From assembly GCA_903862805.1 (NCBI GenBank), contig CAIOZP010000710.1, forward strand, positions 1 through 10,777: 10,777 nt of DNA, read 5' to 3'. This stretch comes from an uncultured Fibrobacterota bacterium. Its GTDB lineage: Bacteria; Fibrobacterota; Chitinivibrionia; Chitinivibrionales; CAIOZP01. Positions 1 to 10,777 of this stretch are shown here, in pieces; the stretch's first letter is position 1, and each line of letters starts with the position of its first letter. The translations under genes were made by a program, and so were the position numbers. Below the pieces are notes generated by a model. That model saw only the letters and a list, made by a program, of their open reading frames with translations, was not told the origin of the DNA and ran no database searches.

Positions 1-358
1 AAACAATCTGATTCAGCGCGTTCCACGTCTCAGGGCCGAAGCCTTGAACATTGCAGGTAAATTCATGCGTTGAAAGCTGAACCATGCCCGCTATTTCTTG
101 CTCTACATCGAGCGCGTTCGGCAACATGCCAAAATCAGCATATTCAAAATGATCATATCCGACCTTGCGAACATCGGTGATTTTTAAGCCGATAAATGGA
201 AGAGTCGGGCGCGTAGTATTCTGATCCATAAGGATGACGTGATTTTCATCGTATCCCGAAACATTCTTGATCATTCTCGCCATGTGTTTGCGAAGTTGAA
301 CAATGTCAGGCATCACAAACAGCATCGAGCTAATTGCCGGTGTATGCGTGGTGTTCAT
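1..358 (-). CDS. Tail terminator / neck protein, partial
   Basis: The frame starts at the ATG at 358 and runs off the left edge of the window, giving 119 visible residues without a stop. Its ATG overlaps the stop of the preceding gene as ATGA, so translation is probably coupled. Visible signatures are RPTLPFIGLKI (residues 50-60) followed by TDVRKVG, and near the end STHEF...VQGFG with a following Trp and Leu. This is the pattern of phage neck or tail-terminator proteins, where a strand carrying a P-[FY]-[IV] motif precedes a beta sheet and a conserved FG before the last helix. Such proteins cap the tail tube or join it to the head. Its position as the last gene of a head-neck cluster fits. 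The family is an inference from pattern and place; the C-terminus is not in view. Confidence 0.6.
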   Translation of the reverse strand, partial: MNTTHTPAISSMLFVMPDIVQLRKHMARMIKNVSGYDENHVILMDQNTTRPTLPFIGLKITDVRKVGYDHFEYADFGMLPNALDVEQEIAGMVQLSTHEFTCNVQGFGPETWNALNQIV

Positions 359-726
359 GAGTTACTTGCCCATCCGGTTTCAACATGAGCGAGGTTTCCT
401 TCACCCCAAGGACGTGACCAAATAGCTACAAGACCATAGCCTGTATGCACCGTTGTATCTGCAATTGCGCCAGTCTTTTCATCGGCTACCTGACAAACGA
501 CATTGCCATACGTGACGCGGTTTCTTGTGCTTTTGCGACCTTCGGGAAACATTGCCATTTGATCACCGGTCGGCTCTTGGCACGAACAGCGCATCTGAAA
601 TGTTGTCTGTGAAGGCGCAACGGGAATGCCATCAACAATCTGAATCTCTGTAGGCAATAGTGTATCGGGATCAAGGTACTGCGACCTTGTCACCGTTAAA
701 ACTGTTCTCCAAAGCGAGGACATCAT
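355..726 (-). CDS. Head-closure-like phage neck protein
   Basis: This 123-aa product has no signal peptide or membrane segment. The central stretch at residues 42-73 runs from FQMRCSCQEPTG through MAMFPEGRKS to RVTYG. It resembles the 'Q-P-x-[ST]-G-x4-[LM]-x-PEG-x-R' core of small phage proteins coded between the tail completion protein and the tail terminator in phages with DUF4054 connectors, which are thought to act in head closure or the neck. Two adjacent ATG codons (726 and 723) could start it; the first gives an ATGA overlap with the upstream stop, the second a TGATG overlap. The 3' end overlaps the next gene as ATGA. The role is inferred from motif and gene order; the exact family was not checked. 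Confidence 0.6.
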   Translation of the reverse strand: MMSSLWRTVLTVTRSQYLDPDTLLPTEIQIVDGIPVAPSQTTFQMRCSCQEPTGDQMAMFPEGRKSTRNRVTYGNVVCQVADEKTGAIADTTVHTGYGLVAIWSRPWGEGNLAHVETGWASNS

Positions 727-1232
727 ACGGCGACTGATCCTTCGGAAAGATTTTCAGACGCGGCGCGAACCTTGAACTTGATCGAATTGCGTAAATGGCC
801 GGTATTCACAAGCGGTTTACTTGAACCCTTGCGGGCAATTGTCGAAGCGGCGTTTGCTGGTTCGATACCGTCGGCAATGCGCTTTTTACAGGCATCGACA
901 AGGGCACCACCCATTTGGGAAAGAACCTGTTTGTTTGTTCTTGCATGTGCAAATACTTCAGAAAGAGACGCGCTGCGAATCTCGTTTAGCTTGTCTGCCA
1001 TTTGGTCAAGAGTCCCGCGCAAGAAAGACCTTTGTGGAATCACTATGTTGTGATTTTTGCCCGCTGTCTCGCATCCGAATTCATGCACTGCGCCGACCTG
1101 TACCGTGGTGTATTCCGAATCAGGCTCATTCTCCGACTCTTCAAACAGCCCGACCGCAACCGTGTCCAGCTTCATATCGTTAAGCGTAGCCATAAGCCGC
1201 TTAAATCCCGGATCGGTGTCAATGACCGACAT
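723..1232 (-). CDS. Tail completion / virion morphogenesis protein (gpG or HK97 gp10-like)
   Basis: This 169-aa protein carries the three marks of the Mu gpG / HK97 gp10-like group in the right order: VGAVHEFG at residues 46-53, IPQRSFLR at 65-72, and KPLVNTGHLRNSI at 139-151. Between them lies a helical, charged segment (about 74-122) ending in a polar loop. Proteins of this group complete the tail or the head-tail junction. The ATG at 1232 shares one base with the TAA stop of the preceding gene (TAATG), so it is probably translated by coupling. Its own Shine-Dalgarno sequence is weak (AGGGATGA further upstream). Length is typical for the group. The family call is strong; the exact assembly step is not decided by sequence. 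Confidence 0.8.
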   Translation of the reverse strand: MSVIDTDPGFKRLMATLNDMKLDTVAVGLFEESENEPDSEYTTVQVGAVHEFGCETAGKNHNIVIPQRSFLRGTLDQMADKLNEIRSASLSEVFAHARTNKQVLSQMGGALVDACKKRIADGIEPANAASTIARKGSSKPLVNTGHLRNSIKFKVRAASENLSEGSVAV

Positions 1233-1603
1233 TATGACATCATCCCTGATGTGTAAAACGGCTTGATATAGGCAGAGCGTAACGCAAGATATTCCTGCCC
1301 GAATGATGTAGATGCTAAATCTACATCGCCCTGATTGATCTTTGGCTGTGAATACGATTGACTCACTCCGCCGGAATGATCGGAAGCAAGTAGCCCGCCG
1401 CCGGACACCGAACGCCCCATCATCTCCTTTGAAAGAAGATGAAGCGAATACAGCGCAAGAGCGGTTTCGCTCTTGTCGCCGAATATTGGTAAATTGACAA
1501 GCTGCCGAACATAGGTCATTATGTCAAGACCATGCTGAAATGATGTATTGGGCATCAAGTCAGGCGCACGGATTACCATTATTTCGGCGGCGGAAAGTCC
1601 CAT
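1232..1603 (-). CDS. DUF4054-type head-tail connector protein
   Basis: This 123-aa, mainly helical protein looks like DUF4054, a family of phage head-tail connector or adaptor proteins that dock on the portal. Support comes from size, place (second gene after the major capsid gene, just before the tail completion gene) and layout. A helical segment at residues 46-63 (TALALYSLHLLSKEMMGR) is followed by a Gly/Ser-rich loop (about 64-80), a QSYSQ element, and a C-terminal helix starting near SFGQEYLALR. In the family the loop after the long helix is likewise Gly/Ser-rich. The ATG at 1603 directly abuts the TAA of the upstream gene, with a modest AAAAGG-type Shine-Dalgarno sequence inside that gene's end. 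The call is by pattern only. Confidence 0.65.
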   Translation of the reverse strand: MGLSAAEIMVIRAPDLMPNTSFQHGLDIMTYVRQLVNLPIFGDKSETALALYSLHLLSKEMMGRSVSGGGLLASDHSGGVSQSYSQPKINQGDVDLASTSFGQEYLALRSAYIKPFYTSGMMS

Positions 1604-1885: not shown

Positions 1886-3025
1886 TCAAATACCGTCGAT
1901 AACTGCGACCGACAAAGGATACTGAATAATCATGCCAGAAACAGAAGCGATACAATTGGTTTTGTATACCATGTTCACTTGTTCGGTAGGAAGCTGCTTA
2001 AACGGCATCGGAGTATTGAAGCGAAGATTGTTGACATCTGCCTTGAAAACAATCGCGCAACTATGCGAGCCGTAAGCGGTCGGTGCGACATTGGTCGAAG
2101 GAACAATCTGGAGCTGGCCAAGATCGGCAACCCAATCCCATGTAACAATTCCTGGATTCGCTTCCTTGAGGAAACCAAGGATAGTAAGCGGGGAAATAGA
2201 CGCAATGCTTCCAGCGCCCGAAATCGCAGTATATGGAGTCTGCGACAGATACCCGTAGGTATTGACATCAAACAGCACGGTATCAGGATCTTCCACGCCA
2301 TTGGTCAGCGTGCGAATGCCGTTGATCCAAGCATTGACATCCGCAACGATCTGCGCCGGTGTCTTATTGATAAACATCGTCTTTGTTTCGGCATGTCCGC
2401 CGACTTCCGTGCCGGTTGCCGAAGCGGTGTATTTGGTAACGAGCGGGTGGTTGACAATACCGACAGGATCATTTGCGTTGACCGGAGCCGCGCCACGAAG
2501 GCCGCCTTCCATGCCCTGCAATCCAAACCATGCCATCGCGTTAATGGATTGTTCGTAATTCTGGCGACAGGCAATAGCCTTGCGTGCATCAATAGGCATT
2601 CCAGCCTGCTGCGCGACGGCAATGTCCTTGATGCTATACTGGTACGCGCCAGCAATATCTCTATTATTGATCGAGGTCTGCACGCCTTCAATTTCCGTCA
2701 TCGGAACATCATCGGCATAATTGCTTATGATTTTCCACTTACCGGTCTTGTTGTAGGTGTAGTACACAAAGATCAACGAGCCTTCGCCACCCTCGGACGT
2801 AAACGGAATAAGCGTCTGCGCCTTGAGTGACGCATATTTTACGTCGTATGTAATCTGTGATACATACTCAATCTGGCGGGTAAAGAAGACGTTTGAAGCG
2901 TCATCCATCTGCCAGAAGGCTGGTGTCTTTTCGTAGCTTTCGCCATCCATCACGAACTCAACCACGCCATTGAGGCGGGCGGTTGAATCGAGACAGAACT
3001 TTTTCATCATGTCTGTAAGTTTCAT
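1886..3025 (-). CDS. Major capsid protein, DUF2184 family
   Basis: This 379-aa protein matches the DUF2184 family of HK97-fold major capsid proteins. Typical elements are FFTRQIEYV (residues 47-55), a following YDVKYASLKAQTLIPF (60-75), a Tyr-rich E-loop-like strand (SLIFVYYTYNKTGKWKI, 83-99), SNYADDVP (101-108), YQYSIKDIAVAQQAGMPIDA (128-147) and NAMAWFGLQGMEGG (162-175). Proteins of this family build the icosahedral shell. The ATG at 3025 has a GGAGAA Shine-Dalgarno sequence about 10 bases upstream. The gene sits between the cement-like gene and the strong hairpin at 1854-1881. No separate delta domain or cleavage site is plain; the N-terminal region up to about residue 40 is short. It is one of the safest calls in the window. 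Confidence 0.9.
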   Translation of the reverse strand: MKLTDMMKKFCLDSTARLNGVVEFVMDGESYEKTPAFWQMDDASNVFFTRQIEYVSQITYDVKYASLKAQTLIPFTSEGGEGSLIFVYYTYNKTGKWKIISNYADDVPMTEIEGVQTSINNRDIAGAYQYSIKDIAVAQQAGMPIDARKAIACRQNYEQSINAMAWFGLQGMEGGLRGAAPVNANDPVGIVNHPLVTKYTASATGTEVGGHAETKTMFINKTPAQIVADVNAWINGIRTLTNGVEDPDTVLFDVNTYGYLSQTPYTAISGAGSIASISPLTILGFLKEANPGIVTWDWVADLGQLQIVPSTNVAPTAYGSHSCAIVFKADVNNLRFNTPMPFKQLPTEQVNMVYKTNCIASVSGMIIQYPLSVAVIDGI

Positions 3026-3052: not shown

Positions 3053-3826
3053 TTACGGCAGATTGATTTCGATGATTGCGATACCGGCAGCCGTTGTGCC
3101 GATCACGACAGATGCCGCACTCCATGCAATCGCAAGGCCCGACGCGCTGTCATTGCGGAAGTTACCCGCGAGCTTGGTTACGTCGGAAACGTCATTCTGC
3201 ACGCGAACGAAAACCGTCGAATCAACGGCAAGTGCGGTTTCCGTATAAACGGCAACGCGGCATTTCTTGCCAAGATTCAGAGTGATTCCACCGACGACGT
3301 ATGCGCAGGTATTCGAGATCGGATCAAGGATCAAGGAATCTGAACCGATTGCGATACCTGCGAAAACATCGGAAGATGTCTGAGCTACCGTAACCGCAAG
3401 AGTGTCGCCAAGTCCAGAAGCAACTACGGTGAAATCTGCCGTTGCTGGGCCTGCGATATTCTTCATTTTGATGGTCAACACGCTGGAAGCAGCGGCCGCA
3501 GAAGACACGCTCGGAAGCGCGGCAATCTGTATGGCAAGCGCGGAAAGCGTTGTCGCCTCATCGGAAGAAAAGTTCTGCGTGATCGTTGTGCCTGCGACAA
3601 CAACGGCAATATGTCCGGCGGTTATGGCACCGGTGAAGGTAGCGACAGTCTCATTCAGCTTTGGAAGGCGAACGAGGTTCTGCGATGTCTGTCCCGGAAC
3701 GTAAACAACAGCGCGACCGACTTCGATAGTCTCCGCCTGTGTCCGTGAAACCACGTCGTGAAGTTCGCTGTCGAACAACTGGCCCTTTTTGGCCAAATCG
3801 GAATACAGAGGATATGTTACTGGCAT
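3053..3826 (-). CDS. Capsid cement / decoration protein with inserted beta domain
   Basis: This 257-aa protein is rich in Ala, Val, Thr and Ser and likely mostly beta. The N-terminal part (residues 1-50: YSDLAKKGQLFDSE, VGRAVVYVPG) and the C-terminal part (about 160-257: SDSLILDP, RVAVYTET, VFVRVQND) look like the structural cement proteins found just before DUF2184 capsid genes, which stabilise the shell from outside. The middle (about 60-150) looks like an extra module: FTGAITAGHIAVVVAGTTI, a TTLSALAIQIAALPSV helix, then TIKMK and FTVVASGLG strands. Similar modules recur in phage surface proteins. The ATG at 3826 directly abuts the upstream stop and uses an AGGGGG Shine-Dalgarno sequence inside that gene. 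The alternative is a generic head decoration protein of another family. Confidence 0.65.
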   Translation of the reverse strand: MPVTYPLYSDLAKKGQLFDSELHDVVSRTQAETIEVGRAVVYVPGQTSQNLVRLPKLNETVATFTGAITAGHIAVVVAGTTITQNFSSDEATTLSALAIQIAALPSVSSAAAASSVLTIKMKNIAGPATADFTVVASGLGDTLAVTVAQTSSDVFAGIAIGSDSLILDPISNTCAYVVGGITLNLGKKCRVAVYTETALAVDSTVFVRVQNDVSDVTKLAGNFRNDSASGLAIAWSAASVVIGTTAAGIAIIEINLP

Positions 3827-4423
3827 TTACTTTGCCCCCTTCTTGGCCTTGCGAGCCTCTTCAAATTTCGTTGCTTGTGCGTCGATCATCTTCTGGCGCG
3901 GGTCGATGTCACCATCTGCATCTTTTCCGGAGTCAGGCGCATTCTGGCCGTTGTTGCTTTTGAGCGTCGGGCGTTCTTTGGCATTACCTTCGACGCGGCC
4001 GTTGCTTTTTGCAGCCTGATCGGACATCTCTTTTTCGTCGAGGGCGAGCACCGAAGCGTAAACGCCGTCGATGTATCCCGCTTCCTTGCCGTCAAGATTC
4101 AGCTTCGGGAGCTTTGCAGCAATCGCGGCTTTCTTGAGGTATGATTCGTCATAGCTATCGAGCTTGATCGAATCGCCGACGATTTTCTTTACCTGAGCGG
4201 CAAGGGCCACGCGGTCGGAAATCGTCTTTGAAAGATTGCCCTCGGCCGCGTCAAGCTGGAGCTTGAGCGCGTCGCGCTCGCCGTGCGCTTTTGCGAGATC
4301 GGTTTTGCCCGTGGCGACTGCGGCATCGGCCGCATCTACACGGAGTGTCAGCTTGCCATAAGCCTTTTCGACTTCCGGCGGCACTTCATACTCGATGCCG
4401 TCAAGATTGAGCTTCTTCGTCAT
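3827..4423 (-). CDS. Nested in-frame scaffold protein from internal start (predicted)
   Basis: An in-frame ATG at 4423 (Met200 of the protease gene) is preceded by AAGGAGG with 7 bases between, a better ribosome site than that of the full-length gene. Starting here would give a 198-aa protein that begins MTKKLNLDGIEY and is mostly charged helix (AYGKLTLRVDAADAA, then a Lys/Asp/Glu-rich coiled region), ending in KKGAK. The start falls exactly at the boundary between the protease domain and the scaffold region, after a flexible acidic linker. Lambda uses the same plan, with the scaffold Nu3 made from an in-frame start inside protease gene C. That comparison is established knowledge; use of this site here is inferred. 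Confidence 0.65.
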   Translation of the reverse strand: MTKKLNLDGIEYEVPPEVEKAYGKLTLRVDAADAAVATGKTDLAKAHGERDALKLQLDAAEGNLSKTISDRVALAAQVKKIVGDSIKLDSYDESYLKKAAIAAKLPKLNLDGKEAGYIDGVYASVLALDEKEMSDQAAKSNGRVEGNAKERPTLKSNNGQNAPDSGKDADGDIDPRQKMIDAQATKFEEARKAKKGAK

Positions 4424-5020
4424 TGAAGAGCCTCCTTCGTTTGGTTCGTTTTCTTCGTTTCCATCCATCTTTATAGAGACACGCTTACCGGCACGTCCTG
4501 AATGGACAACGGCAACGTGATTGTATTCGATATTCCTCTGCACTTTGTCGTATGGTTCGCCATTGTACGTTCCGGGGGTGTCGTCAAGATCGCAGTAGTA
4601 TCCAGCGGATATTTCGCGTTTGCCATCCTGTACGGCTTTGATTGCGGCGCGATTCTGAATAACAAATGGCGACATAAGGAGATCGCCGTCTTGCCGAATG
4701 TTCTCGCCGACGGTGCCGACGGTGGCTTTGCTTACATTGTCAGGGGAAAGTACGCCGCCAGAAATTGTAGGGTGTGAATTTGTGACGGGCTTAAATTTGG
4801 CGGTCTCCATCGAGGAGTCTTTGAATAATTCTTCGGCGGGGCGAAACTCGCGCTGAAGTTTGCCGTCTTCGTTGTATCTTTTAACAATCCCAACCGCACC
4901 GATAGGCGCGTCAACAACAAGATAACCCGCGTTATCAATGCGGTGAGATTTAGGCGCGGCTGAATCGGTACGAAAAACACGAGCGGCTGAATTGCTATTT
5001 GAGTCTTGCGGAGTAGCCAT
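3827..5020 (-). CDS. DUF2213 capsid maturation protease with C-terminal scaffold region
   Basis: This 397-aa protein has two parts. Residues about 30-185 match DUF2213, a predicted prohead protease related to the herpesvirus/HK97-type serine proteases: NSHP (81-84), REISAGYYCDLDDTPG (135-150) with Tyr-Asn-Gly-Glu-Pro-Tyr next, and YNHVAVV (166-172). The likely catalytic set is H83, S138 and H168; this assignment is an inference. After an acidic linker (NEENEPNEGGSS, 188-199) comes a long alpha-helical, charged region (200-397) typical of a scaffold. The ATG at 5020 has GGAGAT about 8 bases upstream. A strong ribosome site inside the gene points to residue Met200. The protease would cut scaffold and itself during head maturation. 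It sits upstream of the cement and capsid genes, as expected. Confidence 0.85.
   Translation of the reverse strand: MATPQDSNSNSAARVFRTDSAAPKSHRIDNAGYLVVDAPIGAVGIVKRYNEDGKLQREFRPAEELFKDSSMETAKFKPVTNSHPTISGGVLSPDNVSKATVGTVGENIRQDGDLLMSPFVIQNRAAIKAVQDGKREISAGYYCDLDDTPGTYNGEPYDKVQRNIEYNHVAVVHSGRAGKRVSIKMDGNEENEPNEGGSSMTKKLNLDGIEYEVPPEVEKAYGKLTLRVDAADAAVATGKTDLAKAHGERDALKLQLDAAEGNLSKTISDRVALAAQVKKIVGDSIKLDSYDESYLKKAAIAAKLPKLNLDGKEAGYIDGVYASVLALDEKEMSDQAAKSNGRVEGNAKERPTLKSNNGQNAPDSGKDADGDIDPRQKMIDAQATKFEEARKAKKGAK
4431..4437 (-). promoter_or_regulatory. Internal Shine-Dalgarno site for nested scaffold
   Basis: The minus strand reads AAGGAGG here, followed by 7 bases and an in-frame ATG. It encodes Glu-Gly-Gly of the linker, so it could be partly a coding accident, but both match and spacing are close to ideal. 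Confidence 0.65.
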
Positions 5021-5133: not shown

Positions 5134-5313
5134 TCAATAGTCAGTGCGTTCTTTTGGATCTTTGGAACACATTTCCTCTTCGTGAATTACCCGACTGCGA
5201 GTAATTCCGCCGTTATGTAGGTTGACTTTTACAATCACCTCGCCGGAGTATTTGCGGTCGAGAAGCGATACAAGATGCAGCGCGGTGTGCTGGCAAATGT
5301 CGTTTACAGTCAT
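5134..5313 (-). CDS. Small hypothetical phage protein (59 aa)
   Basis: A 59-codon frame starts with an ATG at 5313 that overlaps the TGA stop of the minor head protein gene as ATGA, and ends at TGA 5134-5136. The product begins MTVNDICQHTALHLVSLLDR, continues through KYSGEVIVKVNLHNGGITRSR, and ends in an acidic, polar tail with HEEEMCSKDPKERTDY. An N-terminal helix followed by two beta strands joined by a Gly-Gly turn is the likely fold. I do not recognise a family. The stop-start overlap, the even reading frame and the lack of any other use for this stretch make it a likely real, translationally coupled gene. Small ORFs between Mu F-like and protease genes are common in related phages; their roles are mostly unknown. 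Confidence 0.65.
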   Translation of the reverse strand: MTVNDICQHTALHLVSLLDRKYSGEVIVKVNLHNGGITRSRVIHEEEMCSKDPKERTDY

Positions 5314-6218
5314 TCTGCGGCCTCCAATTGTGTCATGTTTTGGCTATCAATAAAGTCTTGTAAATGTTGCAACGGGTCAACCTCTTCCGGCGCATCGGGG
5401 TCTTCCATGGCTTTCAACTTATCGGTGTCAGGGAGTACCGAAAGAGAGACGCACCTGCACCGGTAATCTTCCCCCGGATCCAATTCTGGGCCGCCGATGT
5501 CGCTTCGTTGATTCCACGTTTCGCCGCCATCGTCGCTATAAACCGTATCGTCATCCCATCGGCAGAGCATCCCTTCCATAGCGCGGTGGGAATCGTCCGG
5601 TTCATCGCGGACGCGTTCATCTTGCACCGTTGACCATGTATAATATTCACAACCGATGTCTTGCGAATTTTGCTTTGAAATATCGCCATTGAGCTTTGCA
5701 AGCTGATCGACCGCAATCAGACGCGCCCGACTTTCTGCAACATCAAACCGCTCTTCGATCAATTTCGACAGCGTTTCTGGTCGCATTGCCGTTTGAAAAG
5801 ATCCGTGAATAAGATCCGATACTTGCCCGTGGAGTTTGACAGGAATGGATTTTATCAGACGTACATTTTCGGCAATGTATTCTGAAAGCAAATCCGCAAC
5901 CGGTTTTTCTGGCAAAACCGGACGTGTGCCGGTCATCGACTTTATCACGTTTTGGAATATTTTCCGGTTATTGTTTGCCAAAATGACAAGGTGTTTTTTT
6001 GCTATCTCTTCGGCATTTAGGGGAAAGTGCAACCCGACAACGGGAACCGCAGGGGCAAGATTCCCAGCGACCAACTCCGACAACATAATGTCTTTTTTAG
6101 GCTGAAATGTCTTGCGAAGAATCTTTACCCCTGCGATGATTGCGGCGGCATAAGCGGCTTGAAGTCGTTTAGATACGGCCTGTGACGGAATGACACGCTT
6201 GTTTTTCTTGCGGGCCAA
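5310..6218 (-). CDS. Minor head protein, phage Mu F-like
   Basis: This 302-aa protein carries the Mu gpF / SPP1 gp7-type C-terminal domain. SRARLIAVDQLAKLNG (residues 163-178) leads to EYYTWSTVQDERVRDEP (191-207), then His211, and a closing PGEDYRCRC (248-256). The N-terminal half is basic at the start (ARKKNKR) and then helical. Such proteins are made next to the portal and enter the head in few copies; some travel with the DNA. The frame opens after the portal stop with only TCA and then TTG (6216-6218), and the next Met is residue 45, inside the helical region, so a TTG start is the best choice. The Shine-Dalgarno sequence is modest (AGGGA, 6 bases before). The end overlaps the 59-aa gene as ATGA. 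Confidence 0.85.
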   Translation of the reverse strand: MARKKNKRVIPSQAVSKRLQAAYAAAIIAGVKILRKTFQPKKDIMLSELVAGNLAPAVPVVGLHFPLNAEEIAKKHLVILANNNRKIFQNVIKSMTGTRPVLPEKPVADLLSEYIAENVRLIKSIPVKLHGQVSDLIHGSFQTAMRPETLSKLIEERFDVAESRARLIAVDQLAKLNGDISKQNSQDIGCEYYTWSTVQDERVRDEPDDSHRAMEGMLCRWDDDTVYSDDGGETWNQRSDIGGPELDPGEDYRCRCVSLSVLPDTDKLKAMEDPDAPEEVDPLQHLQDFIDSQNMTQLEAAE

Positions 6219-6221
6219 TGA

Positions 6222-7733
6222 TTATCCCTGTTGTGTTCCTACAATGCCGACACCGGTCGCACCTGCCATGCCGAGGTTTTCGGCCGAGCTTGTCAACGGA
6301 TCGCCTGTGTGACCAACCCCAGCCGGTGCCGGTTCTCCTGCGCTATCCGGCGGAAGATCATCGGTCAACTTGTCGCCGTCTTCAATACCGATTCCGTTTA
6401 TCTGGTATCCGTAGTCTGGGCGACTGAATCTCATGTCGCGGATTTCTTCGGCGGAAAGAGCGTTCATCGTGAAATATTGCGTGTCGGCCTGCGCATTTGC
6501 AAGATAAGTCTGTGCAAATTCAAGCTGCGACTGCTGCCATAGCGGGTTAAATTTTATCTCATAATCGTCAAGTTGAAAATTCTGCTCCCCTGCAATTGCA
6601 TCGACCAATTGACGCAATGCCGGTTCGTACCGTCCGCGCTGCTGTGACAAAACGGCATCATACCATTGCCGGATGTCTGCGTCCCCTGTGGCGTTCAAGC
6701 CCTTTGGAGCGACACCGAAAAGCAACTTGACCGGTATTCCTGATTCGCCGGAAAGGGCTTCTGCAAACTTATCTATCAGGTGTTCAAGCCCTGTAATATT
6801 GCTTGTAATGCGCGAATAATCTTCGTCGGTGCCGATTAGTATTGTGCGATTCGTGGATTTCGTTAAATCCATCATTCGCAGGCGCATCAGCAACTCAACT
6901 TCTTGCCCCTTTTCGATCATATTCAGAAGATTGTCAACCTTCAAAATTCCCTGAACGAAATCGGAGACGATAGAATCGCAATTCATCAGCACATTTCGCA
7001 GGGATCGAATCGAAGTGAAGCACGGCTGTAAACAGGAATCACCCCACCTATTCAGGCGCAATCGCTCGGTATCTGTTACCGGTTCGCCGTCATAAACGAT
7101 CAAACGCGACCGGTGGACATTAAACGCGCCGCCAGATAGCGGTGCAATACGGTAAATCATCACCTGTCCGAATGTCGGACTTGTCGGATCCATGTCCAGT
7201 TCGGGCATCGGATTCACGCGCCACCGGTCAAAAACTTTCAGAAACATGATTCTGTAGTCTGATCGTGTCGGATCAAACGGAATAGACAGGTCTGTGTTTC
7301 CGTCGTTGATACCCATGAATATCACTGATCCACCATGCAATCGGCCCCATCGCCACCAATTGCGGAACGTGCCTTCTGCATATAAATCGTGCATTCTCTT
7401 TTTAATGATGCGCTCTTTGACATTATCAAGGCCATCGAACGAATACCCTGCTCTCATACCGTCATAAACGGGTTGTTCAACAATCTTCCGTGCAAATCCA
7501 TCGCCGCGCCACATATTATTCAGAACCGGTTCGGTCATGCGAAGCGGCTGGGTGGGCGACATGTTTTGTACACCATCGATACCATTTACCCCAAGCCCAG
7601 AAGCAAAATTAGCCCAAGAATCTTTCTTGAGCCCGCGTTCGGTCGGCGGAATGTCGCTAATAGAAATGTATTGAGGTGTCTGGGTCGTTAGTTTTGACGG
7701 CCCTGCCGATGTGTTTACGTATCTTGCCGCCAT
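6222..7733 (-). CDS. Portal protein, DUF1073 family
   Basis: This 503-aa protein fits the DUF1073 portal family in length and in motifs: WRGDGFARKIVEQPVYDGMR near residues 75-94, WRWGRLHGGSVIFMGINDG (about 127-145), FKVFDRWRVNP-like FLKVFDRWRVNP, and the hallmark SGIPVKLLFGVAPKGLNATG followed by DADIRQWYDAV. The C-terminal 40 residues are Gly/Pro/Ala-rich and probably disordered. Twelve copies would form the ring through which DNA enters and leaves the head. The ATG at 7733 follows AAGGGGGA, a good Shine-Dalgarno sequence, 22 bases after the terminase stop. This Pfam family has also been named after the anti-CBASS protein Acb1 because some members are fused to that enzyme; no such phosphodiesterase domain is seen here. 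Confidence 0.9.
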   Translation of the reverse strand: MAARYVNTSAGPSKLTTQTPQYISISDIPPTERGLKKDSWANFASGLGVNGIDGVQNMSPTQPLRMTEPVLNNMWRGDGFARKIVEQPVYDGMRAGYSFDGLDNVKERIIKKRMHDLYAEGTFRNWWRWGRLHGGSVIFMGINDGNTDLSIPFDPTRSDYRIMFLKVFDRWRVNPMPELDMDPTSPTFGQVMIYRIAPLSGGAFNVHRSRLIVYDGEPVTDTERLRLNRWGDSCLQPCFTSIRSLRNVLMNCDSIVSDFVQGILKVDNLLNMIEKGQEVELLMRLRMMDLTKSTNRTILIGTDEDYSRITSNITGLEHLIDKFAEALSGESGIPVKLLFGVAPKGLNATGDADIRQWYDAVLSQQRGRYEPALRQLVDAIAGEQNFQLDDYEIKFNPLWQQSQLEFAQTYLANAQADTQYFTMNALSAEEIRDMRFSRPDYGYQINGIGIEDGDKLTDDLPPDSAGEPAPAGVGHTGDPLTSSAENLGMAGATGVGIVGTQQG

Positions 7734-7755: not shown

Positions 7756-9081
7756 CTATACCCATTTTATAGACGAGTAGTCAACATGTCCACTTCCGAC
7801 AATATACATAATGTTGTACCGAAAGCTGTCGAGAAAATGATCCGAGTCTTTCATCGGTTTATCTTCGCCGTTATCGGTCGCTTTCTTGTCCCATAAATAC
7901 CCATATATTTCTTTTATGCCGTTTTTGCATGGATAGCATATTTTGAGTATGCCTTTTTTCATGTGTTTTGACACTGTGCGGATTCCGTCGAGTACGGCAT
8001 TGTCTGCATCCACAACCCGTAAACCGATGTCAGATCGTTTTAATTCGAGCTTGAACGACGCGGCGGACGGGTCGATGATGATTGCCTTTATGTTGTTGCC
8101 AAACTTGCGCCGGACATTGTTCACAAATGTTTTCATGTCTTCGCAATATTCAGCGTCAGTCTTTTGCCGTCCGTTGTGTTCTGCTGAAGAGTAGTAATAT
8201 TCATCAATCGCCCATATTTTAGATTTATCCCGATTCCAGCCGCAAGCAACAAACACCGTCGGGTTCGTGGTGCCGTAATCAACGGAAATACTGATTCCAC
8301 GGATGTCCTCCTGCTCTGGAAGATCGCAAGTGTGGAGCGATTCATTGAAAAAGTCGTAGATAAGACCTTCGGCTTGCACCCATTGGCCGAGTATGTATCG
8401 TTTATAAAACACGCCGGTATATTGCGATTCGTAGAACTGTATTCGTTCTTCCGTCAGGGAAAGATTGTCCCTCATCTCGAAATGAAGGTGAAGCAATCCC
8501 TTTTCAATGGCCTTGTCGATGTATTCGCGCTTGACATAGTGTGCCGGATTGTCAGGGTTGCAATTAAACCAGTATTTCGCACCAGTCACAGACAAACGGG
8601 AAACAGCCATTGCTATGAAGTCTTCACCGGCAAGCGCGGCTTCGTCAATCATTAAACCGGCAAGCGTGATACCCTGAATCTTGGTTTTTGATTGAATATT
8701 GTTGAACTCAAACAGGAAATATTTGTTGCCACCAAACTGAAGATATGGCCCCATCATTGGGTCACGGTGTTCAGTCCATTCCCAGCCCCATGTATTGAGT
8801 ATCTTTTTCAGCTCATTGATTACGTTGCGATTGAGCGCGGGGAAGGTTTTACCGCATATTGCGAAGTTTTGGCCCTTGAAATAGGTCGCTGACCAAAGAC
8901 AAAAACCACAGATAAAATCTATGGTTTTACTTGATCGTATTGATCCTTCGGCTATTATGCCCTGTTTATCTGCGTGAGGAGAACGGGGCCGATCGCTTGA
9001 ACCTTGAAACCACCACCACATGGCAAGCAAGGCTTTGGGCGAAAAGTCCGAGAATTTGAAATATTCTTTAGGTGCCGCTAT
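7756..9081 (-). CDS. terL: Terminase large subunit (PBSX/Terminase_3 type), probable ATA start
   Basis: The packaging motor and nuclease. Counting from TTG 9030 (424 aa): Walker A-like GSIRSSKT (29-36), Walker B LMIDEA (126-131, D129/E130), coupling motif NCNP (156-159), and RNase H-like nuclease acids in ISVDYG (D251), IIIDPS (D320) and DHFLDSF (D401). The frame stays open 29 codons upstream of TTG 9030, and this part encodes APKEYFKFSDFSPKALL, which continues the usual terminase start (a FKPFSxKQ-like stretch before WW). TTG 9030 lacks a ribosome site. AAAGGAG at 9087-9093 lies 5 bases before an ATA codon (9079-9081), giving 441 aa with residue numbers raised by 17. No ATG, GTG or TTG fits this site, so the gene either starts at ATA, carries a start mutation, or is joined to foreign DNA. 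No small subunit gene lies upstream. Confidence 0.9.
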   Translation of the reverse strand: MAAPKEYFKFSDFSPKALLAMWWWFQGSSDRPRSPHADKQGIIAEGSIRSSKTIDFICGFCLWSATYFKGQNFAICGKTFPALNRNVINELKKILNTWGWEWTEHRDPMMGPYLQFGGNKYFLFEFNNIQSKTKIQGITLAGLMIDEAALAGEDFIAMAVSRLSVTGAKYWFNCNPDNPAHYVKREYIDKAIEKGLLHLHFEMRDNLSLTEERIQFYESQYTGVFYKRYILGQWVQAEGLIYDFFNESLHTCDLPEQEDIRGISISVDYGTTNPTVFVACGWNRDKSKIWAIDEYYYSSAEHNGRQKTDAEYCEDMKTFVNNVRRKFGNNIKAIIIDPSAASFKLELKRSDIGLRVVDADNAVLDGIRTVSKHMKKGILKICYPCKNGIKEIYGYLWDKKATDNGEDKPMKDSDHFLDSFRYNIMYIVGSGHVDYSSIKWV

Positions 9082-9086
9082 ATTCG

Positions 9087-9093
9087 CTCCTTT
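9087..9093 (-). promoter_or_regulatory. Shine-Dalgarno site of terminase pointing to an ATA codon
   Basis: The minus strand reads AAAGGAG, then CGAAT, then ATA GCG GCA CCT in the terminase frame. Match and spacing are close to ideal, but the codon at the start place is ATA, not ATG. One base change (G to A) from ATG would explain it. Confidence 0.6.
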
Positions 9094-9108
9094 TGAGTCA
9101 AATATAGT

Positions 9109-9166
9109 TTCTAACGGTCATCCATGCGGACTACGTTTCACCTCGCCGCATAATTCTCGGTTATGC
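9109..9166 (+). other. Degenerate attC-like element at the phage-cassette junction
   Basis: TTCTAAC (9109-9115) and GTTATGC (9160-9166) resemble the attC R'' (RYYYAAC) and R' (GTTRRRY) boxes. TAAC pairs with GTTA; after 8 unpaired bases on each side ATGCGG (9124-9129) pairs with CCGCAT (9146-9151), then an unpaired A9130 and a C-G pair close on a 13-base loop. Equal arms and an extra base on the left arm are attC traits. At 58 bp it is near the known lower size limit. Paired length is short and R' has one mismatch, so this could be chance. Confidence 0.35.
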
Positions 9167-9447
9167 AAGATTATCACCATAGATTTAAGCCATATGTAGC
9201 AAAACAAGGCGACGAATATTTGAAAAATTGGGACAAGTTACTGGAATTATCCAAAAAGACCAAGTAATTTTAGTAAACATAATACTATGGGCACTAAACA
9301 ACACCCAACTATAACGGATACATAAAAAATGAAAAACGCCTGTTCAAACGACAAACCCCCTAACCAACCGCTCAACGCGGACAACGGCTTAAAGTTGCTT
9401 GCCGATTTCATTTGTTCTCCTTAACGTTGCCGGTTATTGGTCGAGCG
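9161..9447 (+). mobile_element. Integron gene cassette 1 (34-aa ORF), left boundary uncertain
   Basis: If the element at 9109-9166 is an attC, the first cassette runs from its G/TT crossover point to that of the next attC, 287 bases in all. It holds one short ORF (9163-9267), then about 90 AT-rich bases with no supported gene, then its attC. The left limit depends on the weak junction site; the right limit rests on a clear attC. Confidence 0.4.
9163..9267 (+). CDS. Hypothetical 34-aa cassette microprotein
   Basis: The ATG lies inside the putative R' box, two bases after the predicted crossover point, and the frame ends at TAA 9265-9267. The product starts MQDYHHRFKPYVAKQG and ends LLELSKKTK: polar, Lys-rich and likely a single amphipathic helix in the second half. 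No Shine-Dalgarno sequence precedes it, and a stop sits four codons upstream, so it is not the end of a longer readable frame. ORFs beginning right at the cassette edge are common in integrons and often depend on upstream translation. I do not recognise a family. It could also be a non-coding spacer or the decayed remains of a longer gene. Confidence 0.35.
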   Translation: MQDYHHRFKPYVAKQGDEYLKNWDKLLELSKKTK

Positions 9448-9453
9448 TTAGGA
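9358..9453 (+). other. attC recombination site 1
   Basis: R'' is CCCTAAC (9358-9364) and R' is GTTAGGA (9447-9453); six bases pair between them. Inside, CGG-A-CAACG (9378-9386) pairs with CGTTGCCG (9425-9432), leaving A9381 unpaired on the left arm, as expected of an extrahelical base. The right end reads GGTCGAGCGTTAGG, close to the common attC right-end consensus. Total length is 96 bp, the same as the next two sites, and the arms are nearly identical to those of the site at 10055. Confidence 0.85.
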
Positions 9454-9455
9454 GG
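9450..9455 (+). promoter_or_regulatory. Shine-Dalgarno site built from the attC R' box
   Basis: AGGAGG begins inside R' (GTTAGGA) and ends in the cassette. It stands 6 bases before the GTG of the leader ORF. As the crossover falls between G and TT, this site travels with the cassette on excision. Confidence 0.6.
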
Positions 9456-9461
9456 ATTCCA

Positions 9462-9494
9462 GTGCGTACTACCAATAATAGCGATAGAAATTAA
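9462..9494 (+). CDS. 10-codon leader ORF coupled to the membrane protein gene
   Basis: GTG at 9462 follows AGGAGG with 6 bases between and encodes (V/M)RTTNNSDRN before TAA 9492-9494. The last A of the stop is the first base of the ATG of the next ORF (TAATG). The main ORF has no ribosome site of its own, so ribosomes that finish the leader would restart there. Class 1 integrons have a comparable case, ORF-11 in attI1, which helps express cassettes without a ribosome site. Here the leader would lie in the cassette itself. Coupling is inferred. Confidence 0.55.
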   Translation: MRTTNNSDRN

Positions 9495-10033
9495 TGCTCC
9501 ACATAAAAGAGACCCTACAAACCATAGCAAAATTACTTGGCGATACAATAAAAGCGCTATGGATTCAATATCTTGTTTTTTTGCTCGGAGGCGCATCGGC
9601 AATTTATTTATGGACGACAAATCAATGGTTGTCATTTGTACAAGCAATAACACAGGGGACGCCAATATGGGCCACAAGTATTCTGGCTGTGGTAAGTGTT
9701 GGATATACTTATATAAAATTTCGCTCATGCAAAACTCCAAAATCTAAAGAGATTATCCCCGTTGTTGCATGGGATCAAGACAGAACACAATATGAACCTA
9801 TACACACTCAAAACGGCAGCAGTGTTTATGCCCCTAAACAGGGAACAGAAGCGTTTGATCACTACCATTGGCTTTGTCCGAGTTGTTTTAACAAAGAGCA
9901 AATATCTTTTCTTCAACCATATTCTTATATGACGACAGTGTTTATGAAATGCACTATTTGCAAAAACACAAATATCGTGCTTCAAGACGGCGAGCGTGCG
10001 AGATTGCAAATTCCGCCAAGCAGGGCATATTAG
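9494..10033 (+). CDS. Cassette-encoded membrane protein with C-terminal zinc ribbon
   Basis: This 179-aa protein has an amphipathic N-terminus, two predicted transmembrane helices (about residues 22-41, IQYLVFLLGGASAIYLW region, and 57-75), a basic segment after the second (FRSCKTPKSK), a polar linker, and a C-terminal domain with two Cys pairs: CPSC (128-131) and CTIC (153-156). Two CxxC pairs 21 residues apart suggest a zinc ribbon, probably cytoplasmic by the positive-inside rule. The chain ends shortly after in QIPPSRAY. I do not recognise a family. It fills one integron cassette and would be expressed by coupling to the leader ORF. A membrane anchor joined to a small metal-binding domain could serve sensing or toxicity, including phage defence, but no direct evidence supports that. 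Confidence 0.8.
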   Translation: MLHIKETLQTIAKLLGDTIKALWIQYLVFLLGGASAIYLWTTNQWLSFVQAITQGTPIWATSILAVVSVGYTYIKFRSCKTPKSKEIIPVVAWDQDRTQYEPIHTQNGSSVYAPKQGTEAFDHYHWLCPSCFNKEQISFLQPYSYMTTVFMKCTICKNTNIVLQDGERARLQIPPSRAY

Positions 10034-10054
10034 AATGTTTATAGCAACCCAACC

Positions 10055-10150
10055 CCCTAACCAACCACTCAACGCGGACAACGGTGCCTTACGAATATGC
10101 GTAGTCATTTGGTCTCCTTACCGTTGCCGGTTATTGGTCGGGCGTTAGGT
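10055..10150 (+). other. attC recombination site 2
   Basis: R'' is CCCTAAC (10055-10061); R' is GTTAGGT (10144-10150), a full match to GTTRRRY. CGG-A-CAACGG (10075-10084) pairs with CCGTTGCCG (10121-10129), with A10078 unpaired. Length is 96 bp. The left arm differs from site 1 by one base in the first 30; the central loop differs much more, though both keep a CATTTG-TCTCCTTA-like stretch before the right arm. Confidence 0.87.
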
Positions 10151-10705
10151 TTATTGAATGTATTGAGTGATAATTTGAAAATAGGCTTGAAGCACAATCA
10201 TATTTTGGAGGTACGGTGAAACTTACTGAAAAAGAAATCAAAACCTATGTTTTAATTGTTATTGTTGCAGGCGCGATTCCATATGTAATTGATCTTTTGA
10301 AATTCATTTCTATTTTCAATCTGCAGGTCGAATGCTTGCTTGATCGATCTTCACGCGATGTTGTTCAGATGCTGTCTTCCGCACACATGCTAAGTACAAT
10401 AGTTATCAGTTTGAGCACGGCTTTATATATCAATATTTCCGAAAAACGACTTGGCAATAATTCAAATATTTTGTGGCAAATATTAGGATTAATTTTCGGT
10501 ATCTTTGGGTTTATTATTTATGCAGCATGGGGAATTTGGAATAAATCAGAAATGTTATATTCAGATAATCAAACTCCCAAAGCATAAGAATTTGGAGCAA
10601 ATGAATTGCGCAAAAACCTAACCAACTGCTCAACCTGACAGCGGGCTCAGGTTTAGTGGTAAATTCATGCAGTGTTTTGCCCGCTGACCGGTTAGCAGTC
10701 GAGCG
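10145..10705 (+). mobile_element. Integron gene cassette 3 (three-helix membrane protein)
   Basis: A 561-base unit between the crossover points of attC 2 and attC 3, holding one ORF (10216-10587) in the direction of the attC. The 65 bases before the ORF are AT-rich and hold no gene; a cassette-borne promoter there is possible but no clear -35/-10 pair is seen. Confidence 0.8.
10216..10587 (+). CDS. Cassette-encoded three-helix membrane protein
   Basis: This 123-aa protein starts at GTG 10216 after TTTGGAGGT, a strong Shine-Dalgarno sequence at slightly short spacing (4 bases from GGAGG). Three hydrophobic segments are plain: residues 11-31 (YVLIVIVAGAIPYVIDLL), 55-74 (SAHMLSTIVISLSTALYI) and 85-107 (ILWQILGLIFGIFGFIIYAA). 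A charged loop with DRSSRD lies between the first two, ISEKRLGNN between the last two, and a short polar tail ends the chain. No catalytic or metal site is visible. I do not recognise a family. It is the only gene of its cassette. Small multi-helix membrane proteins are frequent among cassette genes of unknown function and also among phage-defence effectors; the latter is only a possibility. Confidence 0.75.
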   Translation: MKLTEKEIKTYVLIVIVAGAIPYVIDLLKFISIFNLQVECLLDRSSRDVVQMLSSAHMLSTIVISLSTALYINISEKRLGNNSNILWQILGLIFGIFGFIIYAAWGIWNKSEMLYSDNQTPKA

Positions 10706-10711
10706 TTAGCT
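10616..10711 (+). other. attC recombination site 3
   Basis: R'' is ACCTAAC (10616-10622), a full match to RYYYAAC; R' is GTTAGCT (10705-10711) with one mismatch. ACTGCT (10625-10630) pairs with AGCAGT (10694-10699), the next C on the left is extra, AACC pairs with GGTT, and CAGCGGG (10639-10645) pairs with CCCGCTG (10680-10686). This is the best-formed attC fold of the set. Length is again 96 bp, though the inner arms differ in sequence from sites 1 and 2. Confidence 0.87.
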
Positions 10712-10777
10712 GTACTTGCGTGGTGCCGGAATGTATCTTAATTGTGGTTTGAATTTAAAGCCATATTAAGCACCAGT
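10706..10777 (+). mobile_element. Start of a fourth cassette, cut by the window edge
   Basis: Sequence after the third crossover point should be the 5' end of another cassette. Only 72 bases are visible. They hold no convincing ORF start: the only ATG (10732) is closed by a stop after 12 codons and has no clear ribosome site. Confidence 0.4.

Follow-up and report, generated by a model that had tools for sequence, protein, structure and literature searches.

How did a row of integron cassettes come to lie directly upstream of the large terminase gene of a tailed phage, and is it the phage that carries them? This question is raised by contig C710 of an uncultured Fibrobacterota bacterium. The window analyzed here, 10,777 bases long, is this entire contig, and the sequence past the array is outside view. 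The draft genome, which we take to be metagenome-assembled, amounts to 3.13 Mb in 748 contigs and is 83% complete.

The left part of the window encodes, on the minus strand, the head module of a tailed phage. The large terminase gene terL (7756..9081; PHROG 2, E 1.8e-45; predicted AUA start at 9081-9079) is followed by the genes for the portal protein (6222..7733; PF06381, E 6.1e-77), a Mu F-like head morphogenesis protein (5310..6218; PF04233, PHROG 324), a head maturation protease, DUF2213 (3827..5020; PHROG 530, E 9.4e-82), a virion structural protein (3053..3826; PHROG 7764, E 2.5e-05) and the major capsid protein (1886..3025; PF09950, E 3.5e-41). Four further ORFs (2..1603) correspond to a virion protein, a Neck1/tail completion protein, a head protein and a weakly matched tail terminator (PHROGs 302, 222, 939, and 7975). 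All ten phage ORFs scanned match PHROGs and lie in late-operon order on one strand with open reading frames, forming the synteny of a head module; the leftmost ORF, with its weak PHROG 7975 match (E 0.0058), is cut by the contig end. The portal and capsid proteins have no close relatives in the viral contig collection. Elsewhere in the draft genome, phage-type tyrosine recombinases are present on two other contigs. On contig C718 (L028, 1079-6026), the integrase gene is accompanied by Holliday junction resolvase, SSB-like and Sak4-like genes, and these early phage genes are possibly the other half of the C710 phage. The second recombinase, on contig C6 (L029, 2455-3711), resembles the one of C718 by eye.

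To the right of the head module, three attC sites of 96 bases each stand head-to-tail on the plus strand: attC2 (9358-9453), attC3 (10055-10150) and attC4 (10616-10711), each closing one cassette. All three contain CTAAC (R'') and GTTAG (R') boxes, their alignment has a mean column identity of 83%, and they share a common fold. With start-to-start spacings of 697 and 561 bases and approximately one ORF each, they have the arrangement of a cassette array, for which we asked at least two head-to-tail sites. A covariance model, R1, derives from attC2, attC3 and attC4 themselves, and its scores on them (96-108 bits) are therefore not independent; over the window it found nothing else closely resembling these sites. 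An Rfam scan of the window gave no match, a typed attC-core pattern had none in the viral contig or genome contig collections, and promoter and terminator scans of 8900-10777 returned no more than shuffles did.

Integron integrases act on the bottom strand of attC, as described by Qi et al. 2023 (PMC9892861). In the common fold of the bottom strands of attC2-4, 94.9% of the cells are paired, and the pairing falls to at most 45.5% when the 3' arms are slid against their partners, which destroys the fold. Four pairs are changed on both sides, a number reached by 14 of 500 column shuffles in a test that comprises only three sequences and a fold derived from the same alignment. Using DNA parameters, the folding of the bottom strand is equalled by 15/200 (attC2), 4/200 (attC3) and 0/200 (attC4) shuffles, compared to 47/200, 21/200 and 3/200 for the respective top strands. 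R''/R' boxes combined with a foldable bottom strand, the features by which we assign a site to the array, are present in attC2-4, while the outcome for the additional short site attC1 is mixed. The initial annotation had claimed three clear attC sites, and these are borne out by their R boxes, their column identity and their shared bottom-strand fold. In the contig sequence, both the array and its location are genuine.

All cassettes lie on the plus strand. Cassette 2 (9161..9447), with its boundaries drawn from attC1 and attC2, contains in the ORF list a plus-strand ORF of 34 aa (9163-9267) and a minus-strand ORF of 54 aa (9247-9411). Cassette 3 (9448..10144) encodes a protein of 179 aa (9494-10033) and cassette 4 (10145..10705) a hydrophobic protein of 123 aa (10216-10587). 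In the case of cassette 5, only the beginning is in the sequence (10706..10777), the contig end cutting the remainder. On the minus strand, AAGGAG and ATG are found in the loops of attC2 and attC3 (9409-9422 and 10106-10119), and antisense ORFs open from them, namely the 54-aa ORF of cassette 2, which is hydrophobic, and an ORF of 127 aa (9725-10108). Regarding cargo, the C-terminal half of the cassette-3 protein (residues 85-159, window 9746-9970) matches phrog_1244 (E 2.2e-12), a phage family without assigned function; there is one weak phage match to this protein, with 24% identity, and its C-terminal part appears zinc-ribbon-like as judged by its cysteines. The cassette-4 protein weakly matches phrog_17707 (E 0.0017). 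For both proteins, a protein search that needs shared five-residue words returned no homologue beyond themselves. The cassette ORFs have no plasmid match, and the two larger cassette proteins have no PADLOC match, with no resistance or defence function indicated. A weak KwaA match of the 54-aa minus-strand ORF (E 0.014) and a sub-threshold haemolysin-III-related match of the cassette-4 protein (E 0.03, 14.4 bits with a cut-off of 26.2) were not relied on.

How closely the array approaches terL depends on attC1 (9109-9166, plus strand; predicted crossover G9160/T9161), a short site unlike attC2-4, which constitute one family. Judged from its sequence, attC1 is a probable attC site. It was recognized by a script, replacing a first, cruder attC finder, whose score adds up arms, boxes and a motif, the motif term having been written with attC1 in view. 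On this scale attC1 reaches 23.5, next to 26 for attC2, 26 for attC3 and 21.5 for attC4, a value in the span covered by the sites of known phage arrays. The same score was reached by 2 of 3000 shuffles of 9085-9357, and at one site in the 128,414 strand-bases of sampled contigs from the same genome. When the longer stretch 9001-10777 was shuffled 100 times, the best scores ran up to 28, with their 95th percentile at 22, and 23.0 is obtained on the minus strand at an unrelated location within the phage genes. The score is about equal on both strands of known arrays and hardly separates them. R1 misses attC1, which also folds no better than shuffled sequence (28 of 200 shuffles reach its minimum free energy). 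The possible fourth site of the initial annotation is thus backed by its script score against shuffles, but neither by an R1 match nor by its folding energy. By visual inspection, we dismissed a reverse orientation of attC1, given that the GCGGAC arm with its extra A is located in the 5' half of the plus strand, as in attC2 and attC3; a reversed attC1 is also absent from the eight best minus-strand places listed (lowest score 18.0).

On the phage side of the joint, a strong Shine-Dalgarno-like AAAAGGAG is located on the minus strand at 9087..9094 (9094-9087), 5 nt before the AUA of terL. This start is predicted because the terL frame has no ATG, GTG or TTG between the upstream stop and 9030, where TTG is the first usual start. 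The terminase of relative P0003 starts two residues further in than the predicted AUA, and that of relative P0002 is also annotated only from a later internal ATG. Between AAAAGGAG and attC1 there are 14 nt, or 263 nt to attC2 if attC1 is rejected; accordingly, the earlier estimate that the array begins within about 30 bases of the terL ribosome site holds when attC1 is accepted. The phage DNA abuts attC1 at the edge of the R'' box, which is not the crossover side. The usual crossover of attC sites is G/TT. Provided that attC1 belongs to the phage itself, phage and cassettes would be joined at G9160/T9161, i.e., the usual crossover point, and this ownership would explain why phage DNA is found on the R'' side of attC1. 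The TTATG following G9160/T9161 opens the 34-aa ORF of cassette 2. We argue, with no computed probability attached, that a random break would seldom leave both terL and its ribosome site whole and meet the R'' edge.

The small terminase gene is missing at the place where the array starts. Nineteen relative loci were listed and the upstream ORFs of 13 were scanned (the other six and the upstream ORF of L040 are outside the count). A small-terminase PHROG match lies directly upstream of terL in 10 of these 13, the ends of the corresponding genes being no more than about 310 bases away from the terL match; three (L012, L019, L022) have no such match upstream. On C710, no cassette-side ORF scanned matches TerS, so that the head module has no recognizable upstream small terminase there. 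A TerS profile run over the whole genome, in a search without positive control, found nothing. That the cassettes adjoin terL and that the small terminase is gone from its usual place, both proposed from the initial reading, is in agreement with the ORF scans and the relatives as far as this contig is concerned.

We tentatively propose, with somewhat less than even confidence, that the cassettes form a phage-borne cluster inside a phage genome, which they entered at a short attC just upstream of terL. A host integron integrase is predicted to have inserted the cassettes at this short attC-like site. On this reading, attC1 would be a working site belonging to the phage, IntI would have made the junction at G9160/T9161, terS and the early genes would lie beyond the array, and the phage particles would carry the cassettes. 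Similar to phage-borne CALINs, there is no intI within the cluster. Phage genes are found on one side of the attC cluster only, and the sequence stops within cassette 5. The proposal is favored by the late-operon order of the phage ORFs, the joint at the R'' edge, the difference between attC1 and the attC2-4 family, a base composition that is host-like in the phage part and foreign in the cassettes, the lack of an integron integrase over the cut-off and of further R1-type sites in the genome, the phage-type recombinases on other contigs and the published precedents. It is weakened by the one-sided phage genes, by the folding energy of attC1 and the poor discrimination of its script score, by the integrons in the phylum and by the listing of the cassette-3 protein on a single contig.

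Clusters of attC sites in phage genomes have precedents. Qi et al. 2023 report integrons or parts thereof in 21 phages, namely three complete integrons, an integrase on its own and 17 CALINs, and five of six phage attC sites recombine with attI1 (PMC9892861). Because such clusters have been described there, the C710 array belongs to a known kind, of which its position against terL is a variant. One of the reported clusters, a Shewanella CALIN, is flanked by genes for tail, scaffold and terminase proteins (PMC9892861), and the initial statement that phage head genes are not known as neighbors of cassette arrays is therefore too strong. The CALINs of TJE1, P12002L and PH101 are like C710 in combining attC sites and small ORFs in phage DNA without intI (PMC9892861). 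Yet, the short attC-like sites that our script finds in TJE1 (at 1020 and 1466) are approximately 12 kb from terL, and in P12002L terL occupies 5260-6801 whereas the methyltransferase genes, the reported cargo, are beyond 29 kb in the gene table; in C710 the array abuts terL. Shewanella phage M16-3 shares with C710 the presence of cassettes between or at phage structural genes, those of M16-3 being reported between them (PMC9892861). Its attC-like sites are found by the script at 14971, 15724 and 16239, but this CALIN is inserted between baseplate and tail-completion genes at about 7 kb from terL, and M16-3 has its own intI. An array abutting terL is not described in the titles or abstract openings among the literature matches listed.

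The main rival, which we regard as unlikely but as a serious contender, is a prophage situated inside or beside a chromosomal cassette array. In its detailed form, the phage is a giant cassette with attC1 as its own attC, opened between terS and terL, and leaves by attC recombination. The order of phage body, attC1, G/TT and next cassette is indeed the one expected from a phage integrated as a cassette. In addition, for the temperate Vibrio phage Va_90-11-286_p16, which bears a cassette array, excision from the chromosome is reported at two attC sites that flank the phage (PMC9892861). The integron of this phage is complete and was taken from its host's chromosome, and its array runs on the same strand as the terminase gene, whereas array and terL diverge in C710 and no intI is seen. 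None of the ORFs on C710 is an intI and no match in the genome exceeds the integron-integrase cut-off, the contig end limiting the view; a complete integron, with intI and attI beside the array, is not indicated by the ORFs of this contig. The best integron-integrase match of the genome, on contig C571 (78 bits with a cut-off of 265), was rejected as intI, being a XerC/XerD-like recombinase; it adjoins a magnesium-transporter-like gene as read from the ORFs.

At the level of the phylum, intI exceeds the cut-off in 13 of 167 genomes, six of them from the same order, which favors the prophage-in-array explanation. With integrons present in the phylum, a chromosomal array has to be taken seriously, and its occurrence in this host group is quite possible. 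Twelve intI-bearing stretches were fetched, among which genome G008 (contig C30, L068, 262-2738) has four attC-like sites of one family, approximately 137 nt long and similar to one another, next to an intI that exceeds the cut-off; the other 11 have none to three attC-like sites per strand at the same score. These chromosomal-type sites from the same order resemble C710 in forming a row of one family, but they are unlike the C710 sites by eye, C710 having three 96-nt sites beside phage genes. In general, the attC-like sites beside intI in relatives belong to other families than attC2-4, which argues against a prophage in an array, as does a genome without intI over the cut-off and without further convincing attC sites of the C710 type. 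In 31 loci, R1 gave a single match, of 22 bits, on a contig of the same genome; it lacks R boxes and was judged to be a chance match rather than an attC. Under strict filters, R1 matched none of the remaining genomes among the 167, a further argument against this rival that is limited by the narrowness of R1, as it misses all three phage records searched, including the attC sites of the Vibrio and Shewanella phages. The absence of array contigs is itself weak evidence, because low-GC array contigs could be lost in binning.

It is rather improbable that the contig is a chimera in which the assembler joined phage and array reads from different molecules. The fragmentation of the draft into 748 contigs speaks for such an error, as does the drop in GC from 0.49 in the phage part to 0.39 in the cassettes. 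The phage part has a tetranucleotide correlation of 0.91 with the pooled sampled contigs of the genome, and its fragments of cassette-part length still reach 0.71 or more. The cassette part has a correlation of 0.38, and 240 fragments of equal length, drawn from 12 of the 748 contigs, include none as low in GC or in correlation. In composition, the phage side agrees with the remainder of the draft genome and the cassettes do not. Cassettes are usually foreign in base composition; consequently, the difference shows DNA other than ordinary host DNA, but does not show a chimeric contig. Among the contigs listed, the cassette-3 protein occurs on one, in favor of a chimera, whereas the terminase occurs on four and the cassette-4 protein on three, which would count against it if the same contigs, from independent data, held both sides; the longest is 10,777 bases each time. 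The joint also sits between two functional edges 14 nt apart, a further point against an assembly error.

We give little credence to a decaying prophage that lost everything upstream of terL and then underwent illegitimate recombination with an array, which would suit a joint away from a recognized G/TT crossover, if attC1 is rejected, and the lack of a TerS match among the ORFs scanned on the contig, but not head genes that are open and a break that left terL and its ribosome site whole.

The terminase itself carries a trace of exchange close to the joint. Among the best 120 of 7566 homologues listed, its best relative is P0002 (82% identity overall; five contigs, the longest 42,282 bases). 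Both are identical in 135 of 136 residues (99%) in the N-terminal part, comprising residues 27-162 of the 7756-9099 translation (window 8614-9021), and 74% identical after it. The 118 other homologues listed have no such step (means 43 and 48%, largest excess 12 points). This pattern suggests a recent exchange of the terL 5' end between two phages, and the P0002 contig may consequently share DNA upstream of terL. The P0002 terminase was not found in the viral contig and genome contig collections. A more far-reaching scenario, which we consider a long shot, is that an attC docking site is maintained by the phage between its two terminase genes. Host integrases would either load cassettes there or insert the entire phage into arrays as one giant cassette, and exchange at the near-identical terL 5' end would spread the loaded site.

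Cassettes move on plasmids and transposons, and carriage by phages has been reported but is rare. Phage carriage, if true, would give cassettes a route between cells. If the docking-site scenario is true, packaging starting beside terL would even make the cassettes the most often delivered DNA. A cluster located at the packaging genes, in an integron-bearing host group, would provide a concrete case for testing the loading and delivery of cassettes by phages, and the same case would also test whether a fixed docking site in phage genomes is used by integron integrases.
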